Part shown: positions 6,931-43,247 of the stretch, in pieces
Layout: every line of letters starts with the position of its first letter
Numbering within the stretch: the first letter of the stretch is position 1
NCBI GenBank assembly: GCA_037043015.1
Contig: CM073321.1
Span: 34,884,101 to 34,948,100, forward strand
Length of the DNA: 64,000 nucleotides
DNA from: Bryum argenteum
Lineage: Eukaryota > Streptophyta > Bryopsida > Bryales > Bryaceae
Reading direction: 5' to 3'
Translations under genes and position numbers: made by a program
Notes under the pieces: model-generated
What the model was told of the DNA's origin: nothing
The model's input: the letters and a program-made list of their open reading frames with translations, nothing else
The model's database searches: none

Positions 6931-7617
6931 TTATTGCTGAAACGTAGGTCTACGTGTACTGTCAAACAGAATGGGAGATGGAGAACGAACAAACTCTTGC
7001 TGAAGACGCCTGGCATAGGAAGGTAGGGTGAATGTTGATGGAGGGTAGTTGTAGAGATGAGCGTTGTGAGTCAATCGCTCTTTCAGACCTGCGATACTAA
7101 AAGTACAAAGAAAATCAGTACAATATATTCATTAGTGCGGAATTCAGAGTTGAGGAAGAGATTAGATGATGACATTACGCACCAATGAACTTTTGTCGCT
7201 TCTTTACTTGCGGTTTGTCAGAGTCATAATCCGCGGGTGGGGCTGATTCTTCACTTTCTCATCAACAGGAGTACCATCCTTGTTGTCCGCTAGTACACGA
7301 TCAAAGATCTTTTCGTCAGGTTCCATAGCAATCAGGTGTAGGTTTGAGCGTGCGCAAGCAATTACAGATGCACCTAAAGATTCAAAAACCCATGTTAGGA
7401 ATACGGAATGTATAAACGACTTCTAACGTAGCTGTTACAGAAACATTACGTGTACTTGCGCTCCAGTCGAAAACAATACCTCCATCGTTTCTAAGACAAT
7501 CCACGAAGCATTTAATGAAGGAGGGGTCCTTCTCTCGCGAGCCTTGTTATGGCGTATCGTTCGCATGATAACGCAATGTCTCATAATTCGCAAAGTTACA
7601 GACGTGGTTTTGTTCAT

Positions 7618-8655
7618 TGTTAACCGAGTAATTACCTAGCCAGTAATCCTTTAGTTACTAGACCAGTAGTCAGGACTTTCTGCGTTACTCTAAGTCAGGT
7701 TTTGGATGAAATCTAATGAATGGATGAAATCCTGTAGATGGATGAAATGAGTTAGGGTTTGGAGACCAGTGTGGCGGCTAGGGTTTGGAAGGGGTTTGGG
7801 GAGTGAGGGCTCTCTCTCTCTCTCAGGAAGTTGGAGGTAGAGCTAGGAGCTGTGTGTGTGAGTGTGTTTGTCAGTGAGTGTGTGTTGAATAGAGGAGATA
7901 ACTACTGCTTTAGACATATATATGGAGGGATCAAAGAGTGAACTGCCACGGGCAGAAGTTATCTGTAAAATCATGAGTTTTCAATGAAGTATGTTTGGAT
8001 TTGTGTGTAGATGTGTTGGAACGTGATTCTAAGTTTTCCACTGTGGATTATTGGAGGAATAGGGTTAGAAGGTGGGGTTGATAAGTAGTATTGTTGGAAT
8101 TGTAGTACCATTGTGGAACTGTCTAGGGCTTATACGAATAGTGTCCAAGCCAATTTCAAAGTTGATACAGGGCCGGTTTCAAGGTTAGTTCAGAATCAGT
8201 TAGAAGTCCAGGGTAGGATAAGTCAAGGTCCACGCCAATTTCTAGTCCAATTTAAGATAAGTCTAGAATCTAGAGCAAGACCAGTTTTGAATCTAAGACA
8301 GTTTTAGGAATAGGTCTGGACGAGTTTGTGATCCAAGGCAGGATAAGCTTTGAGTCTAATGCAATTCCAAGTCTAACCTAGGACCAGTTTAGGGTCCAGG
8401 CCAGGACCGGTTTGGAGTGCAGTTTGGAGTCCAAACCAGTTTGGAAACTAGTTTGGGGTCCAGAACAGTTTGTGAGACCAGTTTGGGGACCAGTTTGGGA
8501 TCCAGACCAGTTTGTGGGACTAGTTCGGGGACCAATTTGGGGACCAATTTGGGGTCCAAAACAGTTTGTGGGACCAGTCGGGGGATCAATTCGGGGACTA
8601 GACGGAGGTCAGTGGATAAGATACTTGAAGGGGTAGGAAGGATACCACTTTCACA
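7618..8655. mobile_element. Solo-LTR-like insertion, 1.04 kb
   Basis: The insertion splits an exon of the copy A methyltransferase-like gene. It starts TGTTAACCGAG and ends CACTTTCACA (TG...CA), with near-identical 5-bp flanks TTCAT (7613-7617) and CTCAT (8656-8660). Copy B at about 31,910 gives the uninterrupted sequence. It contains CT and GT microsatellites near 7,810-7,890 and the minisatellite described separately. Confidence 0.6.
8100..8600. repeat. Minisatellite GGACCAGTTTGGG
   Basis: Degenerate tandem units of about 12-25 bp built on GACCAGTTTGGGG and TCCAGACCAGTTT. Open frames across it are repeat artefacts. Confidence 0.7.
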
Positions 8656-11600: not shown

Positions 11601-12577
11601 ATGTCGTTCATAGCATTAAGAAGCAGATTGCTCTCTCCTCGAGCATCGAGTACGATGCAGTTAACCGAAATGTACCGCGAAGGATCATTCTTATGGTACC
11701 TCTCGATATGTTGCATTCATGCCGTAATACAATAATTACCTTTGTAAACATAGAAGTAGTTGTCACTAAGGTGATGAAGATTTTGATCGGACCGCAGCGT
11801 CCTCTCGAACTCTTGATTAGCAGCTCTCCAAAGCGGATTCGTCCAGAGTTCACCTTCTTTATCAACAATTTTTTCTCGGCCTTTCCTATCAAAGGGAGAC
11901 ACGTACATTACCTGATTGCTTTTGCGGTAACCTTTGTTGAACTTGTTTTCTAGTTTCTTGACGTCTTGTCGAGAGATCGGTCGAACCTCTGGATAACAAA
12001 CGAGGCGACACAAAGGAATAAGCATATGAGACTTCTTAATAGGTTTGTAACGTAACCTGTTAATGATTGCAATTGAATCACCCTTGTGAAGCATACGCAT
12101 CTCGTTCGCACTCCAATCGAGGTCCTTGTTTTGAAGATGTGGAGGCATGTAAATGATTCTAACGTTGACACCTCCAGGCAATGGAGTTTCTTCATCATCC
12201 GAAAGGGATTGGTGTCCATCCTGGTCTTGAGTTGGTAGATGAATATCTTCAGTTTCCAGAGGAATTTCATGTGAAACTGCATTGCAGACGCGTGCAACAT
12301 TTTGTTGTGGTACCAGATTTGTATCATCACCAAAGATGCCATCATGTCCGTTGGACGTTAAAATGGCTAGATCGTTTTGAGAAAGATGAGCGTCTTGTCC
12401 ATCTTGAAGGGAAGGGACTTGAGATAATATCATCTGACAATCAAAAAACCAAGTACAACAAAGCACCTTGATAAAAAGAATTTGTCAAAATGAAAATGAG
12501 ATATAATTAGAAAAATATATAATCGTATCATACTGCAAATGTTGACATGCGTATCATATAAACTAAGCATAGATCTA

Positions 12578-12916
12578 TTAGGATGTAGTCTTTGCTGCAA
12601 GTCGTGGTGAACGTCGTGGTTCAGTTCTTGCCAATGCTTTTGTATGGAGACGACGCGCCTTTGCTTGAGCATAATAATTTAGTCTTGTGCGATTCTCTCG
12701 TGCAACCCGAAGAACGTCATCACTAGAAGTGTAACGGACAGGAGTAGCAGGAAAGAGCGTTGCAAGAACCGCAGACAATATTATTCCTAAACAACGAGAG
12801 TCAACTACAGCTTGTACACGAACTCTCATAGCAGATAGATTGCTATCCGCATCGGATTCCTCCTCTGCAAAGAGTTCTTTCATGCCAATGAATACTTTAA
12901 GGACGTAAAATATCAT
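12578..12916 (-). pseudogene. Small basic protein gene, 3' exon, copy A
   Basis: Open frame ending in RRSPRLAAK just before its stop, matching the terminal exon of the copy B gene at 35,591-35,908. Both have an acidic E-E-S-[DN]-A-D start, a middle PVR[YH]TS segment and the basic end. The upstream exons present in copy B (36.9-38.9 kb) are missing here. The stop codon before the ParB-like gene is kept in both copies, so this is probably the end of a separate gene, although splicing into the next gene cannot be ruled out. Confidence 0.5.
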
Positions 12917-13485
12917 AAATCATATGAAAAGACAAAACAAATATATGATACAGGAAGCCATTCATCCATTTTGTAAAAATTAAAACAACATTATCAATAT
13001 GGCAAGTGTAACACATGTCTGTTCAATTTTGAAAATAGCATCCACTAATCTCTTAGTTATGTAAAAACTTCCAAAAACAATGTCAAGAAAACCGACCCCC
13101 CAAGGCCCTTTCTGCAAGCTCAGCCGAGAGCTTCATTGCCGCCAATTCGCAAGACCAGCAACCTCGGTGACACTACGAGGAGCCTCCTTCAAGCATGTTG
13201 TCGGGCGAATGAAGGGAGGCAAGCACCCACATTCACAGACAAGAAGCAAGACCAACACCTCCCTCGTCACAAAACAACACAATCAGAAAGCCACCTCAAT
13301 TAAATAATCATCCTTTCATTCGAATGGGGTCTAGACTTGCGTTGACGCAAGTCTGACACTTATCCGTGCAATTCCGAAATTCGCATCCTATACTTCCTCC
13401 CTTGGGCAAAAAATCACAACAACAATGAGAACAAAAACGACACCGTCATGCCAGTTCGAGGAGGCTCAGCCAGGAGCTTCATGTT
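12917..13485. other. Junction region inside MULE copy A
   Basis: In copy B this interval corresponds to about 3.5 kb (upstream exons, bidirectional promoter, transposase N-terminus). Here it is short. It holds an unrelated segment rich in CAAGCTCAGCC and GGAGGCTCAGCC-like motifs (13,080-13,480). No gene supported. Confidence 0.45.
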
Positions 13486-16400
13486 TTGTACTCCATGGTT
13501 GTAGATCCTGTCATCTTAGAGAATAATACTACAATCTGGAAGCTTAGACCCGGAAAGTATCGCCTCTATGACTTGACAGATTCCGTCATGAACGCGTCAA
13601 CAATTCTCCTGACCCCACATATTTCTTCTACTATCTATACGGTTGCTCCAGCACTTGCCCGTGTCAAGGTCGAAACAGGTCTTCAAGTCACTATTCACAT
13701 ATCCGATTCATCTGAAGACAAGAAATAGTCATCCTTGCAGCCATGTCGTCCATCATCACATATTCCATTGCCGTCTTCTATATGAGACAATTATCTCAGA
13801 TCCACCCCTTCTTCCCTTCTTTCCTCACAACTTAAAAATCCAAAAAAAATTCTTCCCTCTGTGTGCAATCTCGCTAGAATGCCCAGTAGTAAGACTCTCC
13901 TCAAAAAAATTGATTTCAATACCATTCGCACTATCAACGTATCTTTCTTGCCTCTATTTTCAATGGCAATGTTCTCTTCATATTCCCTCTTACTATTCCG
14001 TCTGCAACTCACAAGGTCGCAAAGTCATTGGAGGGAATGGATAAACGGTATGACGGACATGTGTGGACTAAGACAATGACTATCAACATCAACAACATCC
14101 AAGGATTGTCTTTCCTATACTCCAATTGTGTTGGTCATCTACAATGCCACAACCCAGAGTGCGACTTCTTGCAACGGCCTGATTGAGTCGCTAGAGTGAA
14201 CGATGTGGAGTTTGAAAGCATTCCCAAAGACCCCTTCCCAATAGGCGGAGCGCCCCCGCCCACCTCGATATTAGTCTGTAAGCTTTGCAAAGAACCTCCT
14301 GTTCGTGTTGCGCCTTATTCCGCCAAAATCTTTTATGTAGTTGGAGAAGATTGTCACGAGCGTGCATGTGTCCATATAAAAACCCACAAACACCCTCTCA
14401 AAGTCGGAGATTATAGATGTGTACGGAATAAGATAGATGAGTTAGTCGAAGAGCATGTTGACCGTAACCCTCAAGCAACTGTTTCGAAAATAGTTATGTA
14501 AACGAGCATAGACTTTTTAGGTAACTTACTTCTCAGTGACGAAGGTGACTCCAAAACCGGCAATATTTTTCTCCAGCAGCTACAACTTGTCTTTGAACAA
14601 TGCAAAGAGTTAAACTCTCCAAGCATGCGGAATCGTATCTACACTTTCAAGTACTTGCGTAGGTATGGCATTCTCGATGGGATCACAAAGCTTTGAGGTC
14701 TCAGCAATTGGGTGTATGTGCAACACAACAAGTTCCCTAGCCACGGAGACGAATATGAGAAAGTCTTCATCTTCAAGATGTCCGAGGTCGGCCTTTGCAG
14801 CCGTGTTGACCTTGTTCGCCGCATGCATATGAGCAATTCAATTGGTGGGAAGAAAAGCCATAGAGTTGGGCCGTTTGAGATTGTAGACACACTAACCTAG
14901 CCCTTCCAAGCATTGGACTCCAAACCTCTAAGAGAATGAAATAATAGCATGCATTCATGTATACCCATTATTCACCATCAGGTAACCACCAACACATGAT
15001 CAATGCAATGAAAATCACAAAAAAAACAATGGGGGAAGAAGAAGTACAATTGGGGTCCAACCTCAGTTGGACCCTTGTCCACTAAAGTGGCCGTATCTCC
15101 CTTTTTATTGCTCCTCTTGAAGCAAGCTAGGAGTCTACAAAGAGCTACTTTGATGATGTACTTGAATCCGGAAGCAAGTCTTGTGGTTCTTCCTACAACT
15201 TGAATTATGTGGCCTCAAAGTCAGGCCCTCTATTTGCCCTCCACAATAGACATGCTTTCACTTAATCGATCACCATTCCTCCGTCCATGATCCGAGAAGA
15301 GAAAGCCTAGGCTCTTTGGAAAGTTGGCTTCAAGACGCTCCTCTCCTCCAAAGGGCTTGCTCAAGTTTGTCTCCTACTGATAGAAATTGTTCTTCAAGTC
15401 AGCGCCGCCTCTTCTCGTCGTCCGCCACAAGCCGGTGAAGTCTTCTTGGGAGATCCGCCATAGCTCCCCCGTCGCTGCTCCTATGACCCCGCGCTTGAGC
15501 TTGTTGGAAAGCTGGCTTAAAGACAATCCTTTTTTTTAAAGGGCTTGCCCCAACTCGTCTCCAGCCAAACGCAACACCTTCCCAAAGTTGGCAGATCCAG
15601 ATCTTGGTCGGAAAATCCACTCTCCTATCTTCTACCCTAACCTATCCACACTCACACCCACACTCAACAACTCCACACCTCCTACTTGCATATTTTCTTC
15701 TCATATTAGGTCACACATTTCAAATTTCCATAGCTACAATCCTAGAAGCATCTCTAATCACACACACACATCCAAAAAACAAGAGAGCCCAAAAACTAGC
15801 AAGCCCTAGCGAAGAAGTGAGAGACGAAGTGGAAAGGAAATGAGAGAAAGAAAAAGAAATATGACACCAAAGAAAAGATGAGGGGAGAGGGGGAAACATG
15901 AGAGAGGAATTGTCCTCTCTCACATTCCTTCCTACCTTGTTGCTTTCTCAATTACCTATCTACCTATAACTCTAATACTACCTAACATCTAATATTCTTC
16001 AATTCCAATAATTTAGTTATCCTTCCTAACATACAATCATGTAATTGTCACTAAACTGCCATACTCAATGCTTTTCATAATCATTCTAAAAACTTCCAAG
16101 CCTAGTTCTATATATTCCAATTTAATGCTATTAGTCTATAAGAACCACACAAACTACTATAATCAAATGTATTTTGTATCTAGATATTCAATAACTAATA
16201 CGTGAGCCATTTGGATGGCTTACAGTGCAGCCTGGAGGAAACCTCTCCCATGCATGGATGATGTTTGACCATGTCAAACGCGTTACAGATTGGACCGCCA
16301 TGGCCCCCCACGTGTACAACTCACGTTACCAACACATTATAACCATTGCATGCTGTGATTTCCAGTCCGAGGACAAAGCAGCTCAACTCGTCATCTGGAA

Positions 16401-16560
16401 GAACCTCAACCACGCCATGGCAAGGAAAGGAGTACCGAAGCCGCAATTTTAAGGATTTATGGCTGATAGTGCTCAAGCCAACTGGAACGCTGTGCGCATC
16501 ATCTACGGCTCTAGAAACCCCGCTATCTCCATGGAAGGCCGCGAGCGGACATGTTATGCT
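13486..16560 (+). pseudogene. MULE transposase gene, copy A (broken)
   Basis: Homologue of the copy B and copy C transposase genes. It begins inside the N-terminal domain (YSMVVDPVILENNTTIWKL at 13,489). It contains the cysteine-rich segment (LVCKLCKEPP, about 14,270) and the linker domain, is interrupted by a solo LTR (14,828-16,224), and resumes at 16,230 with PGGNLSHAWMMFDHV and the RNase-H-like core (FMADSAQANWNAVRIIYG at about 16,457). It stops at 16,560, where the Ty3 fragment starts. Several stops and frameshifts are visible. The C-terminal SWIM region is absent. Confidence 0.7.
14828..16224. mobile_element. Solo LTR, 1.39-kb family, copy 2
   Basis: 1,397 bp, starting TATGAGC and ending GGCTTACA, flanked by ATGCA (14,823) and GTGCA (16,225), that is, a 5-bp duplication with one change. 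It interrupts the transposase gene of MULE copy A; the uninterrupted sequence is at about 40,330. It is related to 2327-3716 in order and content (GTTGGGCCGT early, paired plant-like pyrimidine tracts, a terminal hairpin). The hairpin stem 16,202-16,209 / 16,216-16,223 differs from copy 1 by paired base changes. Confidence 0.7.
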
Positions 16561-28613: not shown

Positions 28614-28858
28614 GGTGATATTACAGAGATAATGTGATATTACAGAGATAGTGTGATATTACAGAGATAATGTGATATTACAGAGATAATGTGATATTAC
28701 AGAGATAATGTGATATTATAGAAATAGTGTGATATTACAGAATGCATGTGATATTATAGAGATAGTGTGATATTACAGAATTCATGTAATATTACAGATT
28801 CACAAAGTGCATGTGATATTACAGAAATAGAGTGACATTCCGCGGTTCATGTGACATT
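28614..28858. repeat. Minisatellite GTGATATTACAGAGATAAT
   Basis: About a dozen 18-19-bp units with small changes (ATAAT or ATAGT, TTATAG, TTCATG). It ends about 100 bp outside the left end of MULE copy B. Confidence 0.9.
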
Positions 28859-28958
28859 AAAGAGCAACACTTAGTCCTCCCAATCATCACCCGCTCCACA
28901 GTTCTAATAATATAACAACATATGCCGCTAAAATGGCACGTTCCGCACAATGTCGCAC

Positions 28959-28995
28959 GGGGAATGCACGGGTGTGAGCGGAGAGCGGTGAGCGG
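28959..28995 (+). repeat. Left terminal inverted repeat of MULE copy B
   Basis: GGGGAATGCACGG followed by GTGTGAGCGGAGAGC and GGTGAGCGG. Preceded by the target duplication ATGTCGCAC. Copy A (6188) and copy C (55,857) share the inner part. Confidence 0.9.
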
Positions 28996-29881
28996 TGATT
29001 GGCAGATTTTTTTTTTTTCATTAAAGAATAAGACCGTATTACCACTCATTGCAAAAGAAATTTAAAAGTTAATAGCCCTATTACCATGAAATGGGTGGTT
29101 CTGAATTTTTGAAATGGTCGTTTTTAGGCAAAAAAGAACACAACACCGTGGATATAGGTCCTTTATCCATTTATTTTTATGGTATTGAGGTTATACAATA
29201 TTTCATAAATTATCCACATTTGCAAGTTTAAATAAAAGCTAATTAAATTATGGGCTGACATCATCATGTGTAACCAATACAATTCAAATCATATACAATA
29301 TATAAACCATAATTTGGGATGGCCCTTTAGGTAATCAATAAGTTTAATTTATCAATATTAAGATTTAGGGACTAATTAGGGCTGACGTCATCAATTTCCT
29401 ATTACACCTGTCAGAATTATATGTAAATGCTTCGGTTCATATAATCTGAAATTTATAACTACAGGTCGTCTTCCCGTGTCACCTTGTAAGGTGTACAGAA
29501 AGACATTCACGTGGCATTGTAGTGGTCCGAGTTCGATTCTCCTTGGCCTCGTTTGAGCGTTGCACCGCGTCTTAAAGCAGCTATCCTGAGCTATACAAAT
29601 ACTGGACTATAGCCCCTACCAACGTTGGCAAGATTCAATCACTCCAATGGAAAATTAAAAAAACCTTCTGAAACTTTTAGTCTGCATTGAGTTTTAAACT
29701 TAAACATTTACATACATCGATGCATGGAAATTGGAGTTGAAGAAGTTACATCAAAATTAGGGCTGACGTCACCGTTAAAGGCATGCATGGCTTACATTAC
29801 ACTGTATTGAGATACTTAGAGTAATATTTGAAGAACTTATTGTAGCTTAAGCTATAAACGATAATCACGATAAATAAAAAT
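28996..29881. repeat. Left subterminal region of MULE copy B
   Basis: Poly-T at 29,007-29,018, then AT-rich non-coding sequence homologous to 6,232-6,740 of copy A. The homology resumes at 31,046 after the ADD-gene insertion. Confidence 0.65.
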
Positions 29882-30403
29882 CGGACTAGATGGGAATGGA
29901 TTGTGTCATAAGGAGTGTCGGAGTGTCGGTCGGTGAATACGTCCCATGTACAAAATGTCTGTGCTCATGCATTATGATGTTGGACTTCATGAGATTGGAT
30001 GGGTTGTGTCATAAGGAGTATCGGTTTAGGGGTGAATACATCCCATGAAGCTGTGCAGTGTCGGTGCTCATTGTGATGTGCTACTAGAGATGGGAGAATA
30101 GGATGTTGTAGTGATTCGATTACTCACGAGAATGTAAGAAAAGTGCAGTGATGGTGTCCCTGAGAACTCACGTCCATTGTCATGAGAGTGTAAGTGAATT
30201 GCTGTGTCGATTTCTAATTCGTTGGAATGTCGGTGCCGGTGTAGAGTTCAGAAAAGCTGACAAAAAATGTCAAAAAATCTCAAAAAATGTCGGTGCCGGT
30301 GTGCCGATTCTGACGGCGCTGCCGGTGTGCCGATCCTGACTGCACTGCCGGTGCTGAGAAATCATGTTGGTGAGGTTGGATGGGAAATCGAGAGTTCTCT
30401 CCT

Positions 30404-30409
30404 TATATA
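30404..30409 (+). promoter_or_regulatory. TATA box of the ADD gene
   Basis: CCTTATATACAGG, 93-98 bp upstream of the likely start codon at 30,502. Confidence 0.5.
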
Positions 30410-30501
30410 CAGGAACGGAGGAGCAGGAAGCCAGCATCTCAGAGCAATTCGTTGGCCATCTCTCTTTTGAAACTTCTCACTCTTGCACTGTTGTGGATCA
30501 A

Positions 30502-30939
30502 ATGGCGGGGCATTCGGGCGATTTTGATCCTCTATACTTGTATTCCTGCACTGCCTGTGGAGAGAAAAAAATCCGTGCTTGTTTGTTGGAGCATCCTCGT
30601 CTCGGTGTTGGCATATGCATTTCGTGCAAACTTGTGTTGGACGACGTTGTATTCACGAAGAACGCCCAGTACAATGATGAGCAATGCAATTGATGTGGGA
30701 AAATTCAGTTTGTGATCCCGTGTGATTATTGTAACAAGGCGTGGTGTGCAGCGTGTATCGCACGGAAGAAGGGAGACGACTACCTGAAGGACATGACGGG
30801 CAAAAATTGGGGGAGCTTCAGCTGCAACAGGTATGAGATAGTGCCTCTGCAGACGATTTGGGAGGATTTCGTGGAATTCACTTCAGAAGCTGGTGATTGC
30901 AGCAGCAGTGATTCCGGGAGTGATTCCAACTACGACTAG
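30502..30939 (+). pseudogene. ADD-type zinc-finger protein (one internal TGA)
   Basis: A 145-codon frame starting MAGHSGDFDPLY. It shows the cysteine ladder of the ATRX/DNMT3/DNMT3L ADD domain: SCTACGEKK (residues 13-21), H-P-x-L-x-V-x-I-C-x(2)-C (29-42), DEQCN-stop-CGK, IPCDYCNKAWCAACIARKKG (about 71-90), and a closing W...FSC. ADD domains bind the histone H3 tail, reading unmodified K4 with or without K9me3. The TGA at 30,691 falls where the family has an aromatic residue between two cysteines (C-x-W-C), so one TGG-to-TGA change explains it; the frame is otherwise open. The tail is serine/aspartate rich. In plants ADD-like fingers occur in ATRX relatives; here it is a small stand-alone protein. 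The gene lies 3' of the methyltransferase-like gene and converges on it. Confidence 0.75.
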
Positions 30940-31208
30940 TTGATTGCTAGTTATAGTAGTTGTATGGCCACGACTCACACTTGGATTGAGAGTTGGCTTA
31001 AATGTGCTGGAAATTTTTGGATACAAATTACCGACTTATAAAAATATAAAACCGTATATATTGAAAAACACATATAGATAGTATATAAGTAATAGATCAT
31101 GGAAAACTACAAATGTATGGCGCTACCATGTCCAGTACCTATTGGAAAACAAATCACACACTAGGCAGACGGTGTAGTACCATTAAAGTGCTGATCACAC
31201 TGATCAAC

Positions 31209-34200
31209 CTAAAAGTCTATAAACTTAAGCACACTATTGCTATAACGTTGACGTGGAGTGTCAGACAGAATGGGAGATGGGGCTTGAACAAATTCTTGAG
31301 CAAGACGCTCAGCGTAAGATGGTAGAGTGAATTTTGATGGAGGGCTCTTGTAGAGATGAGCGTTGCGAGTCAATCGCTCTTTCAGACCTGCGATCCTAAA
31401 ATTGCAAAGAAAGTCAGTCCTACCGATATGTAAGTGCTTTTTTTTAAATCGTTAAAGAGAATACAAGATGGAATTACGCACCAATGAATTTTCGTGGCTT
31501 CTTCACGACTGGTTCGTCAGAGTCATAATCTGCGGGAGGGGCCGATTCTCCACTTTCTTCATCACCGGGAGGACCATTCTTGTAATCCGCGAGTACACCA
31601 TCAAAGATTTCTTCGTCAGGTTCCATGGCGATCAGGTGTCGGTTGGAGCGCGCGCAAGCAATCACAGATGCACCTAAAAAACCAGAAGCCCACGTTAAGA
31701 ATGCAAAATAAATAAACGAATTCTAATGTAGAGTTTACGAAAACATTACCTGTACTTGCGCTCCAGTCGAAGACTATACCCCCCTCGTCCGTGAGACAAT
31801 CGACGAAACATTGAATGAAGGAGGGGTCCTTCTCTCGTGAGCCTCGCCATGGCGTACTGTCCGGACGATAATGCAATGTTTTTTTCTCTGCAAAGTTACA
31901 GAGGTGGTCTTCCTCATCAAGTACGATTGCCACACCCGCGTATGCGTGTGCCACTTGCCGAGTTTGGAACTTCGAAACATACTCTTTGCGAACATACACT
32001 TTGATATGGAAGCAGTGAGTCTGCAAAACACAAGTATAGATACATTAACATACAAGCATAGAAGGCAATAACCATGAATTGTAAAATTGAAACTTAGAAT
32101 CTGGTCCGTACCTCTTTCGGTTTGGGTACGGTAGAGGCCATAGGGAGGGGATTATATCTCCACCAGTCTCGAACAAGACGAAAACTATATGTATGCGACT
32201 CGGAATCGAGAGTACGCTCGATTCTACGATATTTTGGATGCATCAGAAGAATGGCTGCAACGTCTGTCAAATGATTCGCGGCAAACACGAAGAGGCTCTC
32301 AAAGTAGGTTTTGTCACGCCGGTTCCAGGATGGAATTTCTGTTGGAGACACACCTGGTACAGGCAAGTTTTCGGGAGCATCTGCAAAAATGAGATCAATC
32401 CCTGGATGCTTGGGTTCATACTCCATCGCCGAACACGGGTACTTACGGTCTTTTCCAATCTGAGATGCAAGTCAAAAATTAGATAGTGGCTAATAGATTT
32501 ACAACTACAAAACGCAATAAGGGAGATTATGAACGACAAATGTATGAATTCATACCTTCTTGATGTGCTCGACGATATCTAGGATTTGCGAATCCCATTT
32601 TGCAATCTTCGATGACTGGTGAACCAAATCTCCAATGTTGCCCTTCTCCAGATACATTGGCAGAGTGACTGATATTTTGGACGACGAGCTGCTACCAATG
32701 TGATTGGGTTTCGGAAGAAGGCGTCTGGCGAATATTGGCTGGCTGAGGCAACGCGGGGACTGCTGCGAGTTGTGGTCGACGGTGAATGATTGAGGTGGGG
32801 ACCCAGCATTCGTAAGTCCACCTGTAGATAGTTGAGTCAATCTTGCACCGCGTCAAATTGTATTGTTGGCAGCTCCCGCTGAAGCCTGAGTCAGATCAGC
32901 ATCTTCAGGCCCTGCAATGTCTTCTGTGAGCGGAGCATTTTCTTCGGATTCTTGCTTAAGATCTATAGCAGGCTCTGCAACAGCGTTGCGTCGCTTCTTG
33001 TTTGTACGAGACTTGGGCACTGCAACTGGTAAAGAAGGAGAAGAGATTGGATCAGGTGCGACTGGTAGAATGGAGAGGTCGTCATCGTCATCGTTGTCAA
33101 TGTCCATCGGTGCAGAGTCAGCTGGGTTTGAAGCGAGATTCCGAAGAAGATGCTTCTCTTCCTTGTGCACGTAGTTGTCGTCGCACTCAAGGAACCATCC
33201 ACCGGTCGTCAATTGGAAGTTAGTAAGTCGCTCTTGTTGGGCTGAAGAGAAAAAGCTGCGGGGATCATTCGTGACTGAAATGTCCTCGAACTCCATTGGA
33301 ATGGAGAACGAAGCTAATGCTCCCTTCGCAACGAGCTCTTGTTTTAAGTACCTACAAAAATGTGAACAAATCAGTTAGTGAAGATTGATCAAGTTGTTCC
33401 AATTTTATTAATATTGAAGAGTAAATTAGAAACATACCAGAACAAAAGCCGCTTAATTGTAACTTTGTCCCCCGTAATCTTCTGAAGATCTGAGCCTTTG
33501 ATGAACTTTGGGTTTGCATTAGGACCAAGATAGTTGTTAAATGCCTTGTCCCATAAGAGCAACCTCCACTTCTCCACATACTCAGATGGCTTAAGGACAA
33601 CACTAGACCACTCTATGTTGAGGTTTTTGTTGTGGATCACGTTTTGCAATTCACTTTGAAGTGAATGCTCGAGCTGTGAAAAAAAAAAACATGTTAATGA
33701 TGAAAATACTATATGAACTCAAACTTTAACAACACGTAACGATAATTTAAGATACCTGTGCCCAAAGAGATGCGCGATGCAAAAGTGCCACCAGAGCTTT
33801 ATCTTTCATAGGACGTTCATCTGGGAAGCAAAAAGATCGTCCAACTTCGTCTGATGAGTTCCACTATTGGAGCCACTTCCCCTTGAAATCGCAATGAAGA
33901 TTAGTAGTAGCTATCATTTGTAAGCGATGGATTGTCATATCGGGTTTCAGGTTCTTGCTGTAATGGGAATAAATCTGCACATGAAATTTTTAAGTAAGAA
34001 TCAAGTTTTAAAACATGATTACAAATAGAGTCATATGAAATATGAAAGGGGTGTTCTGTTTACCTCCTTCGCAAATACTTTCCCAAGTTTGTTGTTGGCC
34101 ACAGCGACCATCTTGTCGAAGTTTTTGCCACGAATCGACTTGATTTCAGCCTTGATTGCATTATCCATGGCACTCCATACTCCGGGTCCTGTTTGTTTCT

Positions 34201-35447
34201 CCTTTGGAACGGTGGCGTAGTAATTTGTTTCAGCGTCATCTGATGCTTTTGCTAATCTCCTCTGTATAACAAATAAAAATGATTAATAAGTTGTAAAGAA
34301 CCGAACAGAAAGAATCAAATGTGAGACACATTAAAGCCAACTTACCGCGTATAAGAACTTTCCAAAAACGTCAACTGTTACAGGATACCAAGTATCTTTT
34401 TTTGCCTTAGCGTTTTTGCAAATTTGGTAATCCTCAGGAGATATCAGATCCTTGAAATCCTCGAGTTTCAATTTTCCGAACTTCTTCATGCGCTGCAATT
34501 TCGCACACAAACCGTCTTCGACATGGTCATGTTCAGTAGACCTGCACAATGGGATGAAACATGAGAGATATTGAAGTTATATAGAATACATATATATTGT
34601 TTTTGGAAAATATGAGAATGACTGACCAGTTTATGTCGTTCATAGCGTCAAGCAGGAGGTTGCTCTCTCCTCGTGCATCAAGTACGATACAATCTACGGA
34701 GATGTGCCACGAAGGATCCATCTTATGATACCTTTCAATGTGACGCATCCACGCCGTAACACGGTGGTTACCTTCGTAGACGTAAAAGTACTTATCACTC
34801 AGGTGTTGAAGATCCGGATCGGACAGCAACACCTTCTCGAACTTTTCATTTGCAGATTTCCAAAGTGGATCCGACCACACTGCATCTCCGTCGTCAATCA
34901 TCTTCTCTCTCCCTTTCCTGTCGAAGGGAGAAACGTACATGACTCGGTCGCCTTCGCGATAGCCTTTGTTGAACTCATTCTCCAACTTTCGTACGTCTTG
35001 TTCGGAGATAGGCCAAACCTTAGGATAGCAAACAAGACGACACAATGGAATTAGCATGCGAGACTTCTTCACAGGTTTGTATCGCAACCTGTTGATAATG
35101 GCGATTGAATCACTCTTGTGAATCGTGCGCATCTCATTTGCACTCCAGTCAGGATCTTTGTTTTGGAGATGAGGGGGCATGTGGACAATCCCGACGTTGA
35201 CACTTCCCGGCAATGGAGTGTCTTCATCTTCAGAATGAGAGACGTCTCGATCGTGATCGGGCATGGATTGAGGTTGACAGTCAGTTTCCACTGGACTTTC
35301 CTCCAGAACTCAGTTGCCCACTTCTTGAGCACTTCTGCCACTATCATGTATGAGTTTATTCTCATCCACAGATCGAGTTGGTGGAGAATGAATCAGAGTT
35401 GGTGTGGCTTCCTCATCATGAACGGATTGGACTTGGGCTGTGTTCAT
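31209..35447 (-). pseudogene. ParB-like / DNA-methyltransferase-like gene, copy B
   Basis: Spliced gene of about ten exons with GT-AG borders, starting at ATG 35,447 and ending at TAG 31,209. The first large exon holds a ParB-like segment: ISEQDVRKLENEFNKGYREG, then YFYVYEGNHRVTAWM (34,791-34,747), comparable to the G-x-H-R-x(2)-A signature. Middle exons (34.5-32.6 kb) are unassigned and include an acidic DNDDDDD stretch. The C-terminal third looks like a beta-class amino-methyltransferase: a motif IV-like GIDLIFADAPENLP (32,400-32,353), then TPWRG, and a motif I-like GGIVFDWSASTG (31,786-31,751) spliced to ASVIACARSNRHLIAMEPD. ParB plus methyltransferase fusions are known from phages and bacterial mobile elements. 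Motif IV is DAPE, not DPPY/SPPY, so activity is uncertain. In-frame stops (TGA about 35,333 and 32,848; TAG about 33,870) disable this copy. Confidence 0.6.
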
Positions 35448-36124
35448 CTGAGAAACCAAAACCAGAATACAACATAGCACAAAAAGAATAAGAAGATATC
35501 AAAGTAACAAAGTTAGAGATATAGAAAATAATTTAGGACCTTTTAATGATTAAACATATGATAAACATATCATATAATCAATGGATACAATTAAGCAGAT
35601 GGCAACTTTGCGGCAAGTCGCGGAGAACGTCTGGGTGCAAGTCTAGCTAATTCTTTCTCTTGAATACGACGAGCTTTGGCCTCATTTTTCTCAATGCCCC
35701 TGATAATCGCAATCCGATCAACGTCAACACGTGAAGTGTGACGGACAGGGGTGAAAGAAGGCGGAGTTTCAGGAACCAAAGACAATGGTATAAGGAGTCG
35801 ACCGGATTCCACATAAGCTAACACTTCGTCTCTCAAAAAGGAGAGGTGGCTGTCCGCATTGGATTCCTCTTCCTGATGAACAGGGAGTGGCTTTAACGGT
35901 ATCTGCAATACAAGTCAAAACAACCACCATGCAAACTATCAGATACTATACAAAGACAGAACTTCACAAACATCATAAATATTAAACCAAATCTCATGCA
36001 TTTGCACATAAAGATACATTCGAAGCTAAACATATTTTTAAGCAGAGAAATCAGGCAGCAGCCCACCAGAGCATATCACAAAAAGAATCTGTTTAAATCG
36101 GCCTAAAATACGACCCCGTCCACC

Positions 36125-36735
36125 CCTTAACGCTGTGATCCTAAACAGCACACCAAAAAATGCTCGAGGAGAAGCAAACATTCAACAAGAGCCCACGAGC
36201 ACAACCACAAGTACAAGTAGAACATCAGGGCGAGCCCACGAAGGCCACGAGCACAAGCAGATCCAGCAATCGCAACATTTTCGGCGACTGCATGATCCCA
36301 GCCTCGGGCATGGCCCTCATTGGCATTTTTTCCATCTGCACTCGACGAAAACAAGATCGGTGAACCACCATCGTGGATTTTCTTCGCCTCTCAAGCAGTT
36401 AGATCATCAGGATCATCAAGAAGTCGAGGAAGGTGGCATCACCCCGCCAGAGCTTCGTGGACGAAGGTCTGCGAGCTCAGTGAAGGATTCGGCAACAAAA
36501 AGAGCCCTCTCCACCCCTCATCGCAGGGATCCTAATAAGCACACCAAAAAATGCTCGAGGAGAAGCAGACCAACAACAAGAGCCCACGACCACAGCCACG
36601 AAGACAAGCACAACGTCACGGCGAGCTCACGAAGGCTAGGAGCAAGAGTAGATCCATCAATGGCAATCTCATCCGCAAGTTCATGATCTCAACCTCGGGC
36701 AGGGCCGTCATCGGCATTTTTTCCATCTGAGCAGA
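36125..36735. repeat. Spaced direct duplication of about 210 bp
   Basis: 36,125-36,340 and 36,525-36,730 share GCACACCAAAAAATGCTCGA, ACAAGAGCCCACGA, CGAGC[CT]CACGAAGGC and TTGGCATTTTTTCCATCTG-like blocks. It lies in an intron or gap of the small basic gene; the open frames are not supported as genes. Confidence 0.65.
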
Positions 36736-37539
36736 ACCATCACGAATCCATGCATACGGAAGAAGCCGAACTATCACAGATCCATCACGATCCCAGGTAG
36801 ATACTCGCGCCGATGGACACAGTTCCTCGACCTGGTCTAATGTAAACCCTAACTATTCTCCCTGCTTCGATTCAAAATTTCAGTGAGACACAACACAAAC
36901 TAAGCTTATATAATTACAAGTATCGGATTGAGAATAAGATGAAATAGATGATTCTAACCTTGAATGCCGTCACGAACCAGGCCTCCTTTTCTGCACGAGT
37001 TTGAAATTTCTTTGCTGGAGCGTACTGAAGAGCGTATTCCCTGTAAAACTCAGAAAAGATGCTTGACTCAGATTCGAAACTCACATTCTCCAACTCCTTC
37101 TCGACGTCCTCTCCTTCTCGCCGCATTGCCATCACCTCTTTGTGCTGCATTGCCATCTCCTCTTGTACGCCCAAGTTCGCCATCGAAGCTCCTTCATTGA
37201 AACCAAACTGATTATTGACAAGAAAGGAGTTGTTCATAGGAACAGGTAGGCCATATTAGTTCGTGGAAAGCATCTTCACTAATTGCATCCTTTCTATTCT
37301 GGTAGCTAAAATCCAAATTGTCACTCTTTCTGTCAGGCATCTCTCCTGACAGCTTTTCAAAACTGTCCCCAACCAAGCTTATCTGAGCCGGATCTAGCCT
37401 CATCGGCGACTCTTCTTTAAGTTGCTAGGGTTTGGCGCCGGCGCATTGAAGATGACCTCTCGCTTCCAAAATTACTCAGGATCACTTGCCGATGGAGCGG
37501 GCATCACCTGGCTATTCTCAGCTTTGCGCCGCAGGGGGA

Positions 37540-38060
37540 GGTGAGCGGATGGGGAGGAAGCGGACGGAGAGAAGTTGCTCGAAGAGCGAGCTGGCGGACA
37601 GGCCGGGTATGGTCAGGGCCCGTATATGGGCAGGGAATCAACGGAAGAGGGCATGAGCAGGGCTTAACGGGGCAGGGCAGGGCTCCATACCTGCAGCAGG
37701 GGCCGGGGGTTTATATCCCGGTACCCAACGGCGCTGCTGCATGGGCCGAGTTATTATACCCCAGTACCCAACGGCGCTGCTGCCAGGGCCGGGGATTTAT
37801 ACCCCGGTCTGGGTCTGCCGGGGCCGGGTGCTATTACCCTTGCCGGGGGTTTATACCCTGGTCTGCCGGGGGTTTATACATCGGTATTGGGCCGGGGTTT
37901 ATACCTTGGGTTTATACCCTGGTCTAACTTGGTCAGGGCCTTTTACCCTGCTCTACCCGATACCCTGATACCCCATTACCGATACCAAGGATGTCTCCAT
38001 GTATACCCGTACCAACTAGGAGTTATACCCTCCAATCCTTTATATTATCACACTGTGCCT
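37540..38060. repeat. Minisatellite with GGGTTTATACCC palindromes
   Basis: Begins GGGCAGGG-rich and continues as 8-10 units built on CCGGGGTTTATACCCYGGTCTG; the core GGGTTTATACCC is an imperfect palindrome with ATA centre. Absent from the corresponding part of copies A and C as far as visible. Confidence 0.7.
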
Positions 38061-38943
38061 CTTTTCTTTCAAGGAACTTTACACTTCTCCCGCATTCAAA
38101 ACTGACTAGATTTAGAATTACCAAAACCAAACAAACATTCTTTTAAATAGTACGTCACATTTTTCTTAGTGTCGCAATACTTAATTGAAATCTACATTGG
38201 CGTCCTGTGCAAACATAATCACATATCTAATCTATGGACGTGAATGCTAAAATGTGCCCTGATTCCTTCATGACACTTAAAAAAAACGTCATGTCATTTA
38301 CCTGCTCCTCTAAAATACGATCACTGGTATCTTCATCTTCTTCAACATCTACAAACTTCTTCTTTTCGTCCATTCGCTCCTCGTTCTCAGAACAGTCTTT
38401 GAAATCTTCTCCGTACCGTCAACACTTAAATCATCTATCTCATCGTCCTTCAGACCTTCATCGGCATCACCCTAGAACACAAACATTCAACTCATTAAAC
38501 TCAAATTGCAATAATTTGATTGCGAAAACTAAAGAATACTGCCGTACCTGCTTCTCAGAATCCTGTACAACTTCATCACCTCCTAAGTAATAATTTAGAG
38601 ATTCGCTAGAAGTCGATCCACTTCTACTGCGCTCCTGTTCTTCTATAAATTTCTTGAATTCGTTTCTATCTTCAACAGTGTCTTTCTCGTTAATCTCGAT
38701 CACTGTGTCAAGATTGATCGACCGCATTTTCAGATTCCGCCTATACTGGGGCCCAATTTCATCATCGTTAAGATAATATTCAGCAGGGCCTCCCTCATCT
38801 CCACTCAACCTAGACGCACCCACCTTTCGCAATGCACTTCGTTTGCGCGCTTTCGTATTACTAAAACGAGTACCCCCTCTCTTCTTCTTCTTCTTAGGCA
38901 CACTCTCATTGGATCTCTCAAACCCCAAGCTCACCGCGTCCAT

Positions 38944-39454
38944 AACGTCGAGACTCTAAACAAAAGGACACAGATCGTTCCGTCTCAATACCTTACCAAC
39001 ACCAACTAAACGAACAAATGAAAGGACCATCTCGTCGTCCTACTCCTATTTAAACAAAGTTTACAAGCCGCCCCCTAACCTAATTTGCCCAGTTCATCAT
39101 AAATTATCCCAACAACTATGACGGCTCATGGTCTGTCAATTGTGACAGTCTCTGACATGAGATGCTAATCTATTTTTTGAATTTGCATACAAATGCTCTG
39201 ACAGTGACGGCCGCCGTCACTTTTCCAATTTTGAGACTGTCAACACTGACACATTAATGATACTAATTACAATTGCCTAATGGTATACAATATTTACCCT
39301 GGATTATGGTAATTGTCTGATTTATTCACTCTCCAAATCTTATTTACTTTACTACGTGTTCCTACTACCAATTTTCTTTTATAGTCTGCATCATACCTAG
39401 TATGTATCCTTTTCTCACAAACACTGTCGATGCTCGTTGGTCCTCTCGCACATC
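38944..39454. promoter_or_regulatory. Divergent promoter region of MULE copy B
   Basis: 511 bp between two start codons on opposite strands. A TATA-like element for the minus gene is at 39,047-39,054 (TATTTAAA). 39,130-39,252 is packed with TGTCA/TGACA words, including TCTGACA at 39,151 and 39,197, CTGTCAATTGTGACAG, and the palindrome GTGACGGCCGCCGTCAC at 39,204-39,220. The equivalent 518-bp region of copy C also has TGTCAGA twice. Confidence 0.5.
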
Positions 39455-42400
39455 ATGGCTTCCTCCTCCTCTGAACCCACTCCTGCAGACATCGTTGAGA
39501 TTGTGTCACAGGGAGCACTTGTTCCCATTTGCATGTCCGTAGGGCTTGAAGGTGTCGTAGAGATCACTGCATCGTGGCTTGGAATTCGGCTCGGCTACGA
39601 TGCATCTTCCATGTGGTTAGAGAGAGAAGTTCTAGAACCTGATACTAATCATGTTCAGTACTCCATGGTTGTAGATCCAATCATCCTAGAGAATAATACT
39701 ACAATCTGGAAGCTTAGGGCTGGAAAGTATCGCCTCTACGACTTGACGGAGTCCGTCATGAACGCCTCAACAGTTCTCTTGACCCCACGTGGTTCTTCTA
39801 CTATTTCCACGGTTGTTCCAGCTCTTGCTCGTGTCAAAGTCGAACCAGGTCTAGAAGTCACCATTGACATATCGGATTCATCAGAAGACGAGAAGAAGTC
39901 TCCTCTGCAACCATGTCGTCTATCCTCTGATATTCCATTGCCACCTCTTGTTAGGGATAACTATCTAAGAGCCACCCCTCCTTCTTTACTTTCATTGCAA
40001 ACTGTAAAACCCGAAAAAATTCTTCCATCCCTTTGCAATCTCGCTACAATGCCAAGTAGCGCCTTGTTCTGCAAAGATCTTTTACGTAGTTGGAGAGGAT
40101 TGTCAGGAGCGTTCATGTGTCCATATAGGAAGCATGCGCAATCTTATCTACACTTTCAAGTACTTGCGTAGGTATAGCATTCTCGATGGGATCACAAAGC
40201 TTAGAGGTCTCAGTAACTGGGCATATGTGCAACGCAACATGTTCCCTGGCCAAGGCGACGAATCGGAGAAAGTCTTCATCTTCAAAATGTCGGAGGTCGG
40301 CCCTGGTAGCGGTTTTGATCTGGTTCGCCGTATGCAACCTGGAGGAAATCTCTCCCACGCATGGATGATGTTTGACCATGTCCAGCGCGTAATGGATTGG
40401 ACCACCATGGCCTGCCACGTGTACGACTCACGTTACCAACGCATTCTAACCATTGCATGCTGTGATTTTAAGTCAGAGGACAAAGATGCTCAACTCATCT
40501 TCTGGAAGAACCTTAATCATGTGATGGCAAGGAATGGAGTACCTAAGCTGCAGTTTCAAGGATTTATGGCAGATAGTGCCCAAGCCAACTGGAACGCTGT
40601 GCGTATCATCTACGGCTCTGGAAACCCTGCTGTTCCCATGGAAGCCCGCGACCGCACATGTTATTTCCATTGGACTCATGCTCTTGAAAAACATACGAAA
40701 CAATACATTGTGCCCGAAGTACAAGGCCAACACCGGATTCTCTGTAAGCAGTACAAGGATGCGCGCACCATGGAAGAGGCTGAGACCCAATATTGGGCTA
40801 TAAGAGCGTGGTGGGCATCCTCGAAGGCTACCTCTGAAGTTGGTTCAAAACACTTAGGTCATTGGCTTGCGTACTGGAACTTCAGATACCGACAATGGGG
40901 TGGATTTATGGAACTAGTAAGTATTCAATTTTTGTGATATCTTTGCCTATGACATGCTCTACGGTAGCTTCTCGAGTGTTATGACAGTACCAAAGAAATC
41001 GACAGTTATTGTTTTAATAATATATATTATTAGTTGATTTTTTATGTGGATTTATAAACTTTGAATCTGTATTAAGTACAAATCTAAATTATGAATAAAG
41101 TCTTAATACGTTTGTACATTGCAGGAAAAAAATATATTCGGCCGAAGAACTCGCAGAGATGCCTTCATGTAATCTTGCGGAGTCAATCCATAACAAGTGG
41201 CTGCAAGCGTCTGACAATAAGGGTAGGGATTTCCACGTCGCAGCCGTTGACGACTACGTTCGGGCCATCCTCCAAGTGGTCGGCTACCATCAATTCAACA
41301 AAGGCGGTGCAAGTGGTTCTGGACCATCCGTAGAAGAACTTCGTCAGCGTCTTTATGTTGCTCAGCGTCGGGCTAATCTATCAGGCAATCCATCATTCCT
41401 CAACAAGGCAGTTATGGACTTCCCTGAAGCTGAAGCTTACTGTACGCGTAACGCCCACTTGGCGGGGGCTAAGATTTTTGGTTCCAGGAAACGTAAGGCT
41501 GATGTTCCCATTGGTGCTGAAGATGAAACTAATCAACCTCACACCGTGAGTTACTCACGTCCTCGAATAGGGAGAAGAGTTACACGAGCTCTTGCTGAGA
41601 ATCTCAGTCCTATCGACGAAGAAGATGAAGTTCAGGAGCAACCGCTGGAACCCCCCGCTTCTCCAAGACCCAGTATTCAGCGCGTCATTGCTATCCAAGA
41701 GACGAGAGTGAATGAGCGTCTATGGCACATTGCTCGTTTGAAGGAATCCTCATCTAAGGCTTGTTGGGGTATTATGGCTAAGACCAGGAAGAAATGCGAA
41801 TCCCGCATTGTCCAAAACGGGAAGGCGACCGCAGCTCCAACTTACACCGGAGTATGGCAACGTCCTCAAGAAGGTCCTAAAAAAACTGATCAGTTTTTTT
41901 TTTGTCCAGACGACATTGAGTGTTGTGTGAAGGGCAGTCGTCGTAAATGGATTGAGCCGTTCTCTCGGAAACAAGGTCGACCGCCTATTCCCTCTATTTG
42001 GCCCGTGAAGATTGGGAGTAATCTCACACTGGATGAAATAGAGGCGTTGACAAATGCGGGTTTTCGGCTCCTACAAAAGGAACGCCTTCCTCTCAACCGC
42101 ACATTCAATAATTCTGCACCACCGAGAGACTTGTCACATATTCCTGTGCCAGATAGGGCTGATGTGTACCCCAAATCAGGCAAGTCTAAAGTTCTTCGAC
42201 GCATCAAGGCTGTGACTCCGAAGCACATGAAGAACATTGACTCAGCTCGTGCCATGGAGGCAAAAATACTCGAGGTGACCATGATACCACAACCTGGTTT
42301 TGGATGTATCGTTGCTTTGGAGTCGGATTCAGAGTCTATCTATAAACTATCTCTAAGTGAGAACCCTGAGTGTTCTTGCCCAGTGTTCAAAAAAACCATA

Positions 42401-42577
42401 TCTAAGTGAGGACGAAAAGGCGAACCGTATAGACATTGCAAGCACCTATACTTTGTGTTGGTATTGGTTTGCAAATTTGATATTGATAGAGACCTCTTCA
42501 TCCACGCGCGGACCTTCAGTTTCAACGAGGTGAAAAACATTCTAGAGAGGGGAATTCTAGACCAAGTTAGAGAGTAG
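39455..42577 (+). pseudogene. MULE transposase gene, copy B (internally deleted)
   Basis: Starts at ATG 39,455 (MASSSSEPTPADIVEI). The N-terminal domain reaches about 40,050. Two internal deletions relative to copy C, at about 40,060 and 40,130, remove most of the cysteine-rich segment and linker. The RNase-H-like core follows at 40,330-40,920: MACHVYDSRYQRILTIACCD, then E-D, FMADSAQANWNAVRIIYG and CYFHWTHALEKH, the MULE pattern. An intron (about 40,920-41,124) precedes exon 2 (KYSAEELAEMPSCNLAESIH). Near the end is a SWIM zinc finger, CSCPVF...CKHLYF (about 42,375-42,455), across a frame break; the stop is TAG 42,575. SWIM fingers are typical of Mutator transposases. The deletions make this copy non-functional. 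Confidence 0.8.
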
Positions 42578-43022
42578 ACTACCTCAAGGTCACATTACAT
42601 AAACCGACATCCACATCTACCCATTCCACATGTTAAACCTGTAATCGTGTGTTTCACACGTTATTTATTTTGATTTCAGCGTTTTACTAAATTCAATAAA
42701 TGTATCCCTATTTACAAAAATTTATGAACTGCTATACAACTTCGACTTCCGATTTCAAAGTTATGATATACTAGCCTCCTCTGTAAAATTTGTAAATGTC
42801 TCTTAACGTTTGAAGAACGTGGTTTAAGTCTACCAAATTTCAGAAATTTTAGCCTTATCTCCACGGGTTTAGGAACACAAAACCACGGTAATAAGTCAAG
42901 AATATTCGAAGATTCTTGAGAATATTCCAGGAAAAAATAGTAAAATATTATTTTTAGAAATTGTTTTGCTAAAATACCAATTCACCGCTCAAATCCCTGA
43001 AACTTGATGGCTCAACGCTCAA
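42578..43022. repeat. Right subterminal region of MULE copy B
   Basis: Non-coding. 42,830-42,970 (CCACGGGTTTAGGAACACAAA, GAATATTC repeats, TAAAATATTATTTTTAGAAA) matches 55,905-56,050 of copy C in inverse orientation, which confirms the same element end. Confidence 0.7.
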
Positions 43023-43058
43023 CGCTCACCGCTCTCCGCTCACACCGTAGCTACGTCC
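43023..43058 (-). repeat. Right terminal inverted repeat of MULE copy B
   Basis: Inverse of the left terminal repeat, ending CCGTAGCTACGTCC. Followed by the target duplication ATGTCGCAC (43,059-43,067). Confidence 0.9.
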
Positions 43059-43247
43059 ATGTCGCACTTTAGCTTCGCTAAAATGGCACATGGAATGGTG
43101 CCATTTTAACGGAATTGAGGTTCATCTTACTATAAATGAATTAATGATATTCAAGAGTAGTGTCATACTACTCTAATTAGCGTTGGCTACATTGCAATGA
43201 GAAAGGGTGTACTATTGTAACTAATATAATCTAATATAACGTGAAAA

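Follow-up and report, generated by a model that had tools for sequence, protein, structure and literature searches.

Genes that join a ParB-like domain to a methyltransferase domain have been described on transposons before. In the passages of PMC12477816 that deal with such a gene, the Ectocarpus transposon Sola1-1_Ec32 carries a ParB-methyltransferase gene opposite its transposase, relatives are reported from red and green algal transposons, and the idea is thereby already in print for other transposon superfamilies (PMC12477816). Here we describe a 14.1-kb transposon from the moss Bryum argenteum, located in a stretch of 64,000 nucleotides (C1:34,884,101-34,948,100, hereafter the window), whose relatives we searched for in the genome of 258.8 Mb (25 contigs). 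The genome contains telomere repeats of the plant type and a LEAFY gene, which fits a streptophyte, and the LEAFY DNA-binding region has residues typical of mosses. It represents an abundant type of DNA transposon with 9-bp target duplications that carries a conserved ten-exon gene, encoding a fusion of a ParB-like and a class-beta methyltransferase-like region, divergent from the transposase. What is new is a dyad-symmetric, co-varying site upstream of this gene. As in Sola1-1_Ec32, a protein of about 1100 amino acids with ParB-like and N4/N6 methyltransferase domains is encoded antisense to the transposase of a giant DNA transposon. Compared by published description, the moss element differs in superfamily and host lineage, and its gene differs in having non-canonical methyltransferase motifs and the co-varying upstream palindromic site; no palindromic or target site is mentioned in the passages of the Ectocarpus paper on the ParB-methyltransferase gene. 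Among the titles and abstract openings listed in a literature search, there was no report of parS-like sites on a eukaryotic transposon and none of a ParB-methyltransferase gene in a moss.

Two further systems are relevant for comparison, VirB, which is a relative of ParB, and VANC, an unrelated protein that has no ParB or methyltransferase domains. The moss element resembles ParB-parS and VirB in combining a ParB-like region with a palindrome located close to the gene itself, and differs from ParB-parS in being a eukaryotic transposon in whose protein no helix-turn-helix was identified; its main dyad site also differs from what we take to be the parS sequence. VirB offsets silencing (PMC10653881), and the targets of VANC in Arabidopsis VANDAL transposons are described as noncoding tandem repeats with rapid sequence divergence (abstract of PMC10398659). 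As with VANDAL and VANC, we are dealing with a plant transposon with an accessory protein and with arrays that diverge rapidly, as VANC targets do; unlike there, anti-silencing by the moss element would be an argument from analogy. In fungi, TET/JBP dioxygenase genes have been acquired by many transposon lineages (abstract of PMC12730594) and are likewise a single type of epigenetic accessory gene found in several transposon superfamilies; unlike the moss gene, they act on 5-methylcytosine, and that abstract names no ParB part. Methyltransferases are also reported in Mariner elements of viruses (excerpts of PMC3627910), and the MT-A70 enzymes of N6-methyladenine (6mA) are another family (excerpts of PMC12695648).

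Drawing on ParB biology, on VirB and on the VANC targets, we propose that the ParB-like protein and its own upstream palindromes form a self-targeting module that would keep the intergenic promoter region open, with protein and site co-evolving, a reading that we hold with evenly divided confidence. Like ParB at parS, the protein would dimerise on the palindromes upstream of its gene and would load or spread from them, thereby covering or marking the promoter region that separates this gene from the transposase gene. The covered region would then stay open against host silencing, in the manner of VANC proteins in VANDAL. The methyltransferase-like region, its classical catalysis perhaps lost, might serve in binding of DNA or S-adenosylmethionine or in dimerisation. 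Protein and site would evolve together, so that each subfamily serves itself. By analogy, the purpose of such a module is probably anti-silencing. The fuller proposition, a self-addressed ParB/parS-type module on a eukaryotic DNA transposon that covers or marks the element from co-evolving loading sites to escape silencing, is put forward more tentatively.

The gene is linked to the transposon ends and to the transposase. Gene, terminus and site-cluster counts throughout rest on the matches listed and are therefore lower bounds. Of 40 left termini scored, at least 21 enclose a listed gene in the expected orientation and none encloses one in the wrong orientation; 19 have no listed gene, and at one terminus a gene lies outside, less than 6 kb away. 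Thus the gene is not confined to places outside such ends, the outcome that an earlier reading of the window made from the sequence alone (the sequence-only reading) had named as contrary to its proposal. A divergent transposase lies within 18 kb of at least 36 of the 160 listed gene loci, compared with no transposase on the same side in the wrong orientation, 5 pairs on the other side, and an average of 1.6 pairs (maximum 5) in 200 random shifts; this chance expectation, like that for the site clusters below, assumes simple placement at random on contigs whose lengths are in part approximate. The divergent arrangement claimed by the sequence-only reading is thereby supported, while its assignment of the transposase to the Mutator-like elements (MULEs) is unproven.

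Both regions of the encoded protein are recognised by profiles of the families that had been suggested (ParB/Srx and N4/N6 methyltransferases), in each case weakly. For the ParB part, phrog_1033, a ParB-like family, was matched in 6 of 6 members (best E 0.0048), and PF01555 (N6_N4_Mtase) matches 7 of 7 (best E 4e-4), scoring 17.0 bits in member 1 against a curated cut-off of 26.7 and hence below threshold; there is also a match to a methyltransferase family of phages (E 2.5e-4). No ParB family match was found in the protein with Pfam profiles, and a PDB sequence search returned no match for the two regions and four chance-like matches for the whole protein (E 0.33-0.43). When the profile of the seven members was compared by hhalign with five phage/plasmid enzymes, 202 columns aligned at a probability of 96.5% and E 9.2e-10, an E-value flattered by the fact that these enzymes came from tblastn records found with the same query; unrelated comparisons gave E 0.25 (methyltransferase-like profile against MULE transposases) and E 0.084 (ParB region against methyltransferases). 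Searches with the methyltransferase part yielded 97 weak phage records (best listed E 8e-4) and 9 plasmid records (best E 0.2). With the ParB part, none of the phage or plasmid matches listed was better than E 7, and no relatives were found in the viral contigs searched.

The three motifs that the sequence-only reading had picked out of the spliced gene (EGNHRVTAW, FADAPEN and FDWSASTG) are all present and in the order that it gave. The canonical catalytic motif of these enzymes is (D/N/S)PP(Y/F/W), for example DPPY, and the canonical motif I is DPFxGSG; the phage/plasmid enzymes show forms close to DPPY and DPFxGSG. In the moss family, motif IV reads D-[AV]-P-E-N in 6 of 7 members, L026 being the exception with DVSEN, with D, E and N invariant and the aromatic residue absent from all 7 members compared. 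Motif I reads FD[WF]S[AP]STG, with a stop at the W in one member. The catalytic tetrapeptide is thus lacking in its canonical form, hence our name "methyltransferase-like". Because motifs IV and I are both altered yet both conserved, classical catalysis is doubtful and a methyltransferase fold is likely. These motifs bear on the possibility that the protein is an active writer of N4-methylcytosine (4mC) or 6mA that its ParB-like part brings to the element, so that the transposon becomes methylated, an idea that the authors of the Ectocarpus work proposed for the Sola1 protein in the passages on it (PMC12477816). The class-beta motif order, the 202-column profile match and the purifying selection on the gene would all suit an enzyme, but the absence of the aromatic residue in motif IV and the departure of motif I from DPFxGSG both speak against one, and we consider an active writer unlikely. 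In the same way, the sequence-only reading's "own DNA-modification gene" keeps its likeness to methyltransferases, while the modifying activity is called into question by motif IV.

The palindromic site upstream of the gene has the fullest form CAGACTTTCGT-SS-ACGAAAGTCTG, with variants in copy A (a diverged relative within the window) and in a complete element that we call the C9 copy; perfect members share the core A[CG][TC]T[TG]CG[TG]-NN-[AC]CG[AC]A[AG][GC]T. In 17 out of 17 elements scored (the ten fetched copies c1-c10, the window, copy A, the C9 copy, L046, L047, and L053 and L054, which were chosen by their sites), all sites lie upstream of the ParB region, in 1-12 core copies. The nearest site is found at -917 to -1341 bp in 16 of these 17; in c3, where there is an insertion, it is at -7,671. 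Left out of this scoring were L021, L024, L026, L048 and L049, which have too little upstream DNA or miss the 5' half. The elements scored thus share with ParB-parS systems a palindromic site close to the parB-type gene. Three more distantly related genes have no consensus site and have different palindromes upstream instead: ACCTTCGG-TG-CCGAAGGT at -1193 in L050, AACCTGCGGTACCGCAGGTT six times between -3276 and -1708 in L051, and AGTTTCGT-CA-ACGAAACT at about -1172 in L052. Inverted repeats of at least this size occur about 0.3 times per shuffled stretch, and in all three loci the differences from the consensus arms fall in mirror pairs.

The same polarity was found when starting from the sites. 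On C1, at least 18 of 21 clusters of the core pattern are faced by the 5' side of the gene and none by its 3' side (random placement: 0.8, maximum 4), and for clusters of the 24-base pattern the gene's 5' side is found in at least 9 of 17 and its 3' side in 1 of 17 (random placement: 0.78, maximum 3). Before the list of ParB matches was added, these 5' counts stood at 13 of 21 and 7 of 17. As a test of prediction, we took two clusters without a listed gene whose neighbours had not been seen beforehand, from a total of ten among the 17 at the time of fetching (eight after the ParB list), and found that both flank such a gene. Both genes are 66-74% identical to four query copies over most of exon 1, and the closest site precedes their ParB core by about 1.0 kb. 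These positions can be set against the explanation that the palindromes are operators of another factor (the transposase, the product of a variable third frame, or a host regulator) and lie near the gene only through a shared intergenic promoter region. The palindromes do sit between divergent genes, and one of the 17 clusters has a listed transposase nearby and no listed gene, but the narrow range of distances from the ParB region, seen in 16 of 17 elements, and the outcome for both fetched clusters leave us doubtful of this explanation. Separately, L052 (C3:24106500-24109700) contains at about 2779-2806 a second palindrome of 28 bp, AGTCCACATGAA-ACAG-TTCATGTGGACT, some 370 bp upstream of its gene, the most distant of the ParB-like genes, and possibly there by chance; one half, TCCACATGAAACA, is one letter off what we take to be the bacterial parS, which may also be chance.

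Next to its position, the symmetry of the site appears to be maintained. The core TTCGTNNACGAA is present between the two genes in 11 of 11 near copies (c1-c10 and the window), while the exact core is absent from the C9 copy and copy A, and its reversed control is found in 0 of these 13 sequences. Genome-wide, AGCTTCGTSSACGAA occurs 143 times compared with 3 for the reversed control, and CAGNCTTNCGTSSACGNAAGNCTG, in which positions 4, 8, 17 and 21 are left free, 449 times compared with 0. The 50 distinct CAGNCTTNCGTSSACGNAAGNCTG sites listed of these 449 (all on C1, in 17 clusters) show three main types at the free pairs and are complementary at pair 4-21 in 47 and at pair 8-17 in 49, a count that concerns the two pairs left free. 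Among hand-picked representatives (17 distinct rows from 20 elements), the eight inner pairs are 90.4% complementary against 79.5% when shuffled, and two-sided changes were counted in 14 cells compared with 3.2 after shuffling, with 0 of 500 shuffles as high. A smaller hand-picked set gave 10 two-sided changes against 2.9 when shuffled, and an 11-pair version agrees. Since the sites in both alignments (A8 and A9) were chosen by hand, these pairing tests lean towards pairing; in A9, the sites of c2, c7 and c10 are not the nearest ones, and c3/c4 and l44/L053/L054 were merged as identical. The flanks of the site differ strongly between subfamilies, and in the site of c10 at 8,574 and that of the C9 copy the differences from other near matches fall in mirror pairs. 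In these comparisons, the half-sites tend to change together between subfamilies. If the palindrome were an RNA hairpin or a DNA cruciform rather than a protein site, its stem would likewise produce two-sided compensatory changes, but the two-base centre and the paired neighbours suit a dimer site, and the sites are arrayed at long and variable spacing, which makes this explanation improbable in our view.

Two other ideas about this region were discarded. The window's CCGGGG...CCCCGG array was dropped as a target because the 12 other scanned sequences are without it, and a protein-coding palindrome (xFVDESL, plus strand) leaves the mirror-pair changes unexplained. Tandem tracts of some kind lie between both genes in 11 of 13 sequences scanned (c2-c10, the window and the C9 copy); those in c2, c5-c10 and the C9 copy are short-unit arrays of other sequence, and c1 and copy A show no clear tract.

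Several observations weigh against a self-targeting module. The match to ParB is weak (E 0.005-0.04), with none in Pfam or PDB, and, as noted above, a helix-turn-helix was not identified. It may be the transposase or some other factor to which the site belongs, and the cluster without a listed gene that adjoins a listed transposase is a concrete case (C1:294134). No gene is listed within 13 kb of 3 of 21 core-pattern clusters and 8 of 17 clusters of the 24-base pattern, and one of the latter 17 has a listed gene on its 3' side. The palindromes of L050-L052 differ in sequence from the consensus site and would be its equivalents by symmetry and place, and even the nearest L051 copy lies further out. 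In many array units the symmetry is broken by changes in one arm, 8 of 17 representatives do not pair at 5-20, and sites within one array are not independent events. Of the two roles that the sequence-only reading had offered, anti-silencing or marking of the ends, the latter is disfavoured, as the sites point to self-targeting near the gene. If the self-targeting module is real, it would be, going by the titles and abstract openings listed, the first parS-type loading system reported for a eukaryotic transposon and a bacterial-type DNA-loading module working in a plant nucleus. The same kind of gene is in any case present in a land plant, on another type of transposon and in very many copies, with a candidate target that evolves symmetrically. 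With such a candidate, binding, spreading and any effect on DNA modification or silencing can be tested directly, and the element would offer a second system for comparison with VANC anti-silencing.

The exons of the window's gene lie at 35447-34627, 34541-34346, 34261-34064, 33974-33756 and 33673-33438 (exons 1-5) and at 33351-32556, 32459-32112, 32020-31750, 31673-31482 and 31387-31209 (exons 6-10). All splice junctions are GT/AG in the window, c1, c3, c8 and c10, and 1-2 sites are altered in each of c2, c4, c5, c6, c7 and c9. Internal stops number three in the window and one each in c1 and c10, and the window's gene ends early, as most near copies continue for about 16 codons beyond its stop. 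Sequence of the gene was found in at least 36 genome places including the window's own (41 matching stretches), and a first look for the ParB region gave 1,205 candidates. In ten pairwise comparisons of five copies, codons with a single change were synonymous in 83-182 cases and non-synonymous in 73-107, with synonymous changes in excess in 10 of 10 pairs (164:84 for c1 and c10), and exons are more similar than introns (0.947 against 0.886 for the window and c1); the gene is under purifying selection. That the gene is a captured passenger with no role in the life of the element, as its many broken copies might suggest, is very improbable given this excess of synonymous over replacement changes, the divergent arrangement kept at no fewer than 36 of the 160 listed loci, and the maintained upstream site. 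Listed copies are concentrated on C1 (44.1 Mb, 17% of the genome), which holds 26 of the 36 full places and 90 of the 160 listed loci and may be a sex chromosome or rich in heterochromatin. Between the two main genes, the C9 copy has no similarity to the window's variable frames, and several copies have tandem units of 147-426 bp in this stretch. The features of the window are collected in Table 1.

Table 1. Coordinates of the transposon, its genes and its sites in the window.
Feature	Position	Strand	Basis or remark
Transposon, 14.1 kb; ends GGGGAATGCACG... / ...GTAGCTACGTCC	28959..43058	+	Homology break against other copies; termini and duplications compared
9-bp target duplication, left, ATGTCGCAC	28950..28958	.	
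9-bp target duplication, right, ATGTCGCAC	43059..43067	.	
Inner inverted repeat, left arm	28971..28998	+	28 nt, 96% complementary
Inner inverted repeat, right arm	43019..43046	-	
ParB-methyltransferase-like gene, 10 exons, 1152 codons	31209..35447	-	3 internal stops in window copy
ParB-like region (exon 1, EGNHRVTAW)	34627..35225	-	phrog_1033 profile
Class-beta N4/N6 methyltransferase-like region (exons 7-9)	31482..32459	-	Motif IV FADAPEN, motif I FDWSASTG
Dyad site, 24 bp, CAGAGCTTCGT-GG-ACGAAGGTCTG, ~1.0 kb upstream of gene start	36448..36471	.	10/11 arm pairs
Intergenic open frames (possible third gene)	35591..37424, frames up to 38955	-	Variable among copies
GC-rich tandem tract, 21-43 bp units, ~1.5 kb upstream of transposase	37691..37923	.	
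Transposase gene with a DDE-like and a SWIM-like (CxC...CxH) region	39455..42574	+	Internally deleted; start approximate
Copy A, a diverged relative that keeps the gene order (gene on minus strand, transposase on plus strand)	6741..16557	.	
Copy A dyad site TAGACTTGCGT-TG-ACGCAAGTCTG, ~0.9 kb upstream of copy A's gene	13332..13355	.	10/11 arm pairs

The boundaries of the element recur in other copies, as homology starts at 28,957-28,959 in 8 of the ten fetched copies and stops at 43,058 in 4 of them, so that the 14.1-kb element with a perfect 9-bp duplication described by the sequence-only reading is borne out. Its inner terminal repeats, given there as 23 perfect base pairs, are present as well and measure 28 nt at 96%; they begin 12 bp inward, and the outer 12 bp of each end are not mutual inverted copies. 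Perfect 9-bp target duplications were also found in c5 and c10, and none was found in c9 when its flanks were compared; in the window, ATGTCGCAC has an additional occurrence at 6,109. The element had also been called complete, which holds for its ends. Both genes of the window copy are defective, as seen from the internal stops and early end of one and the coding deletions of the other, and since its transposase is without two coding stretches that other copies have (about 0.4 and 0.24 kb), the copy is not autonomous. An intact frame of the gene exists in the C9 copy, a complete element of 13.2 kb with 8 of 9 letters matching in its target duplication, a ParB-methyltransferase-like frame with 0 internal stops, and two long transposase frames (762 and 489 codons). 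In copy A, the gene lies at about 12.43-6.74 kb on the minus strand and the transposase at about 13.5-16.6 kb on the plus strand, the order that the sequence-only reading had reported; its exact ends were looked for and not found. Immediately beyond the left end of the window's element lies an array of a 19-bp tandem repeat (9.7 copies, 28615-28798).

The class of the element is less clear than its structure. MULEs have target duplications of 8-11 bp, mostly 9, terminal inverted repeats, and a transposase with PF10551 and a SWIM domain C-terminal to the DDE domain. The duplication length is of the MULE type in the window, c5 and c10 (9 bp), and SWIM (PF04434) matches weakly and under the cut-off, at E 0.13-0.14 in 3 of 3 transposase copies and at 0.13 in a fourth. 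PF10551, the MULE transposase domain, has no match in the element's transposase copies; it was found at 74 places in the genome, and 0 of these are 3 kb or less from any of the 150 transposases listed for the element's family. Comparison of the transposase with MULE transposases of the same genome by hhalign was not significant (E 0.25). For the SWIM-type MULE transposase of the sequence-only reading there are the duplication length and a SWIM match below the cut-off, but no PF10551. MULE membership is plausible, and because PF10551 is unmatched and likeness to the genome's MULEs is not significant, we name the element MULE-like and do not file it as a MULE. A diverged third transposase relic of the same family lies on the minus strand of the window at 55968-60176, with an imperfect palindrome, TAGACTTGC-TGCACC-GCAAGTCTG, between its frames at 57796. 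Elsewhere, many transposase copies about 86% identical to that of c10 keep open frames of at least 735 codons on many contigs, which suggests that a sister lineage was recently active.

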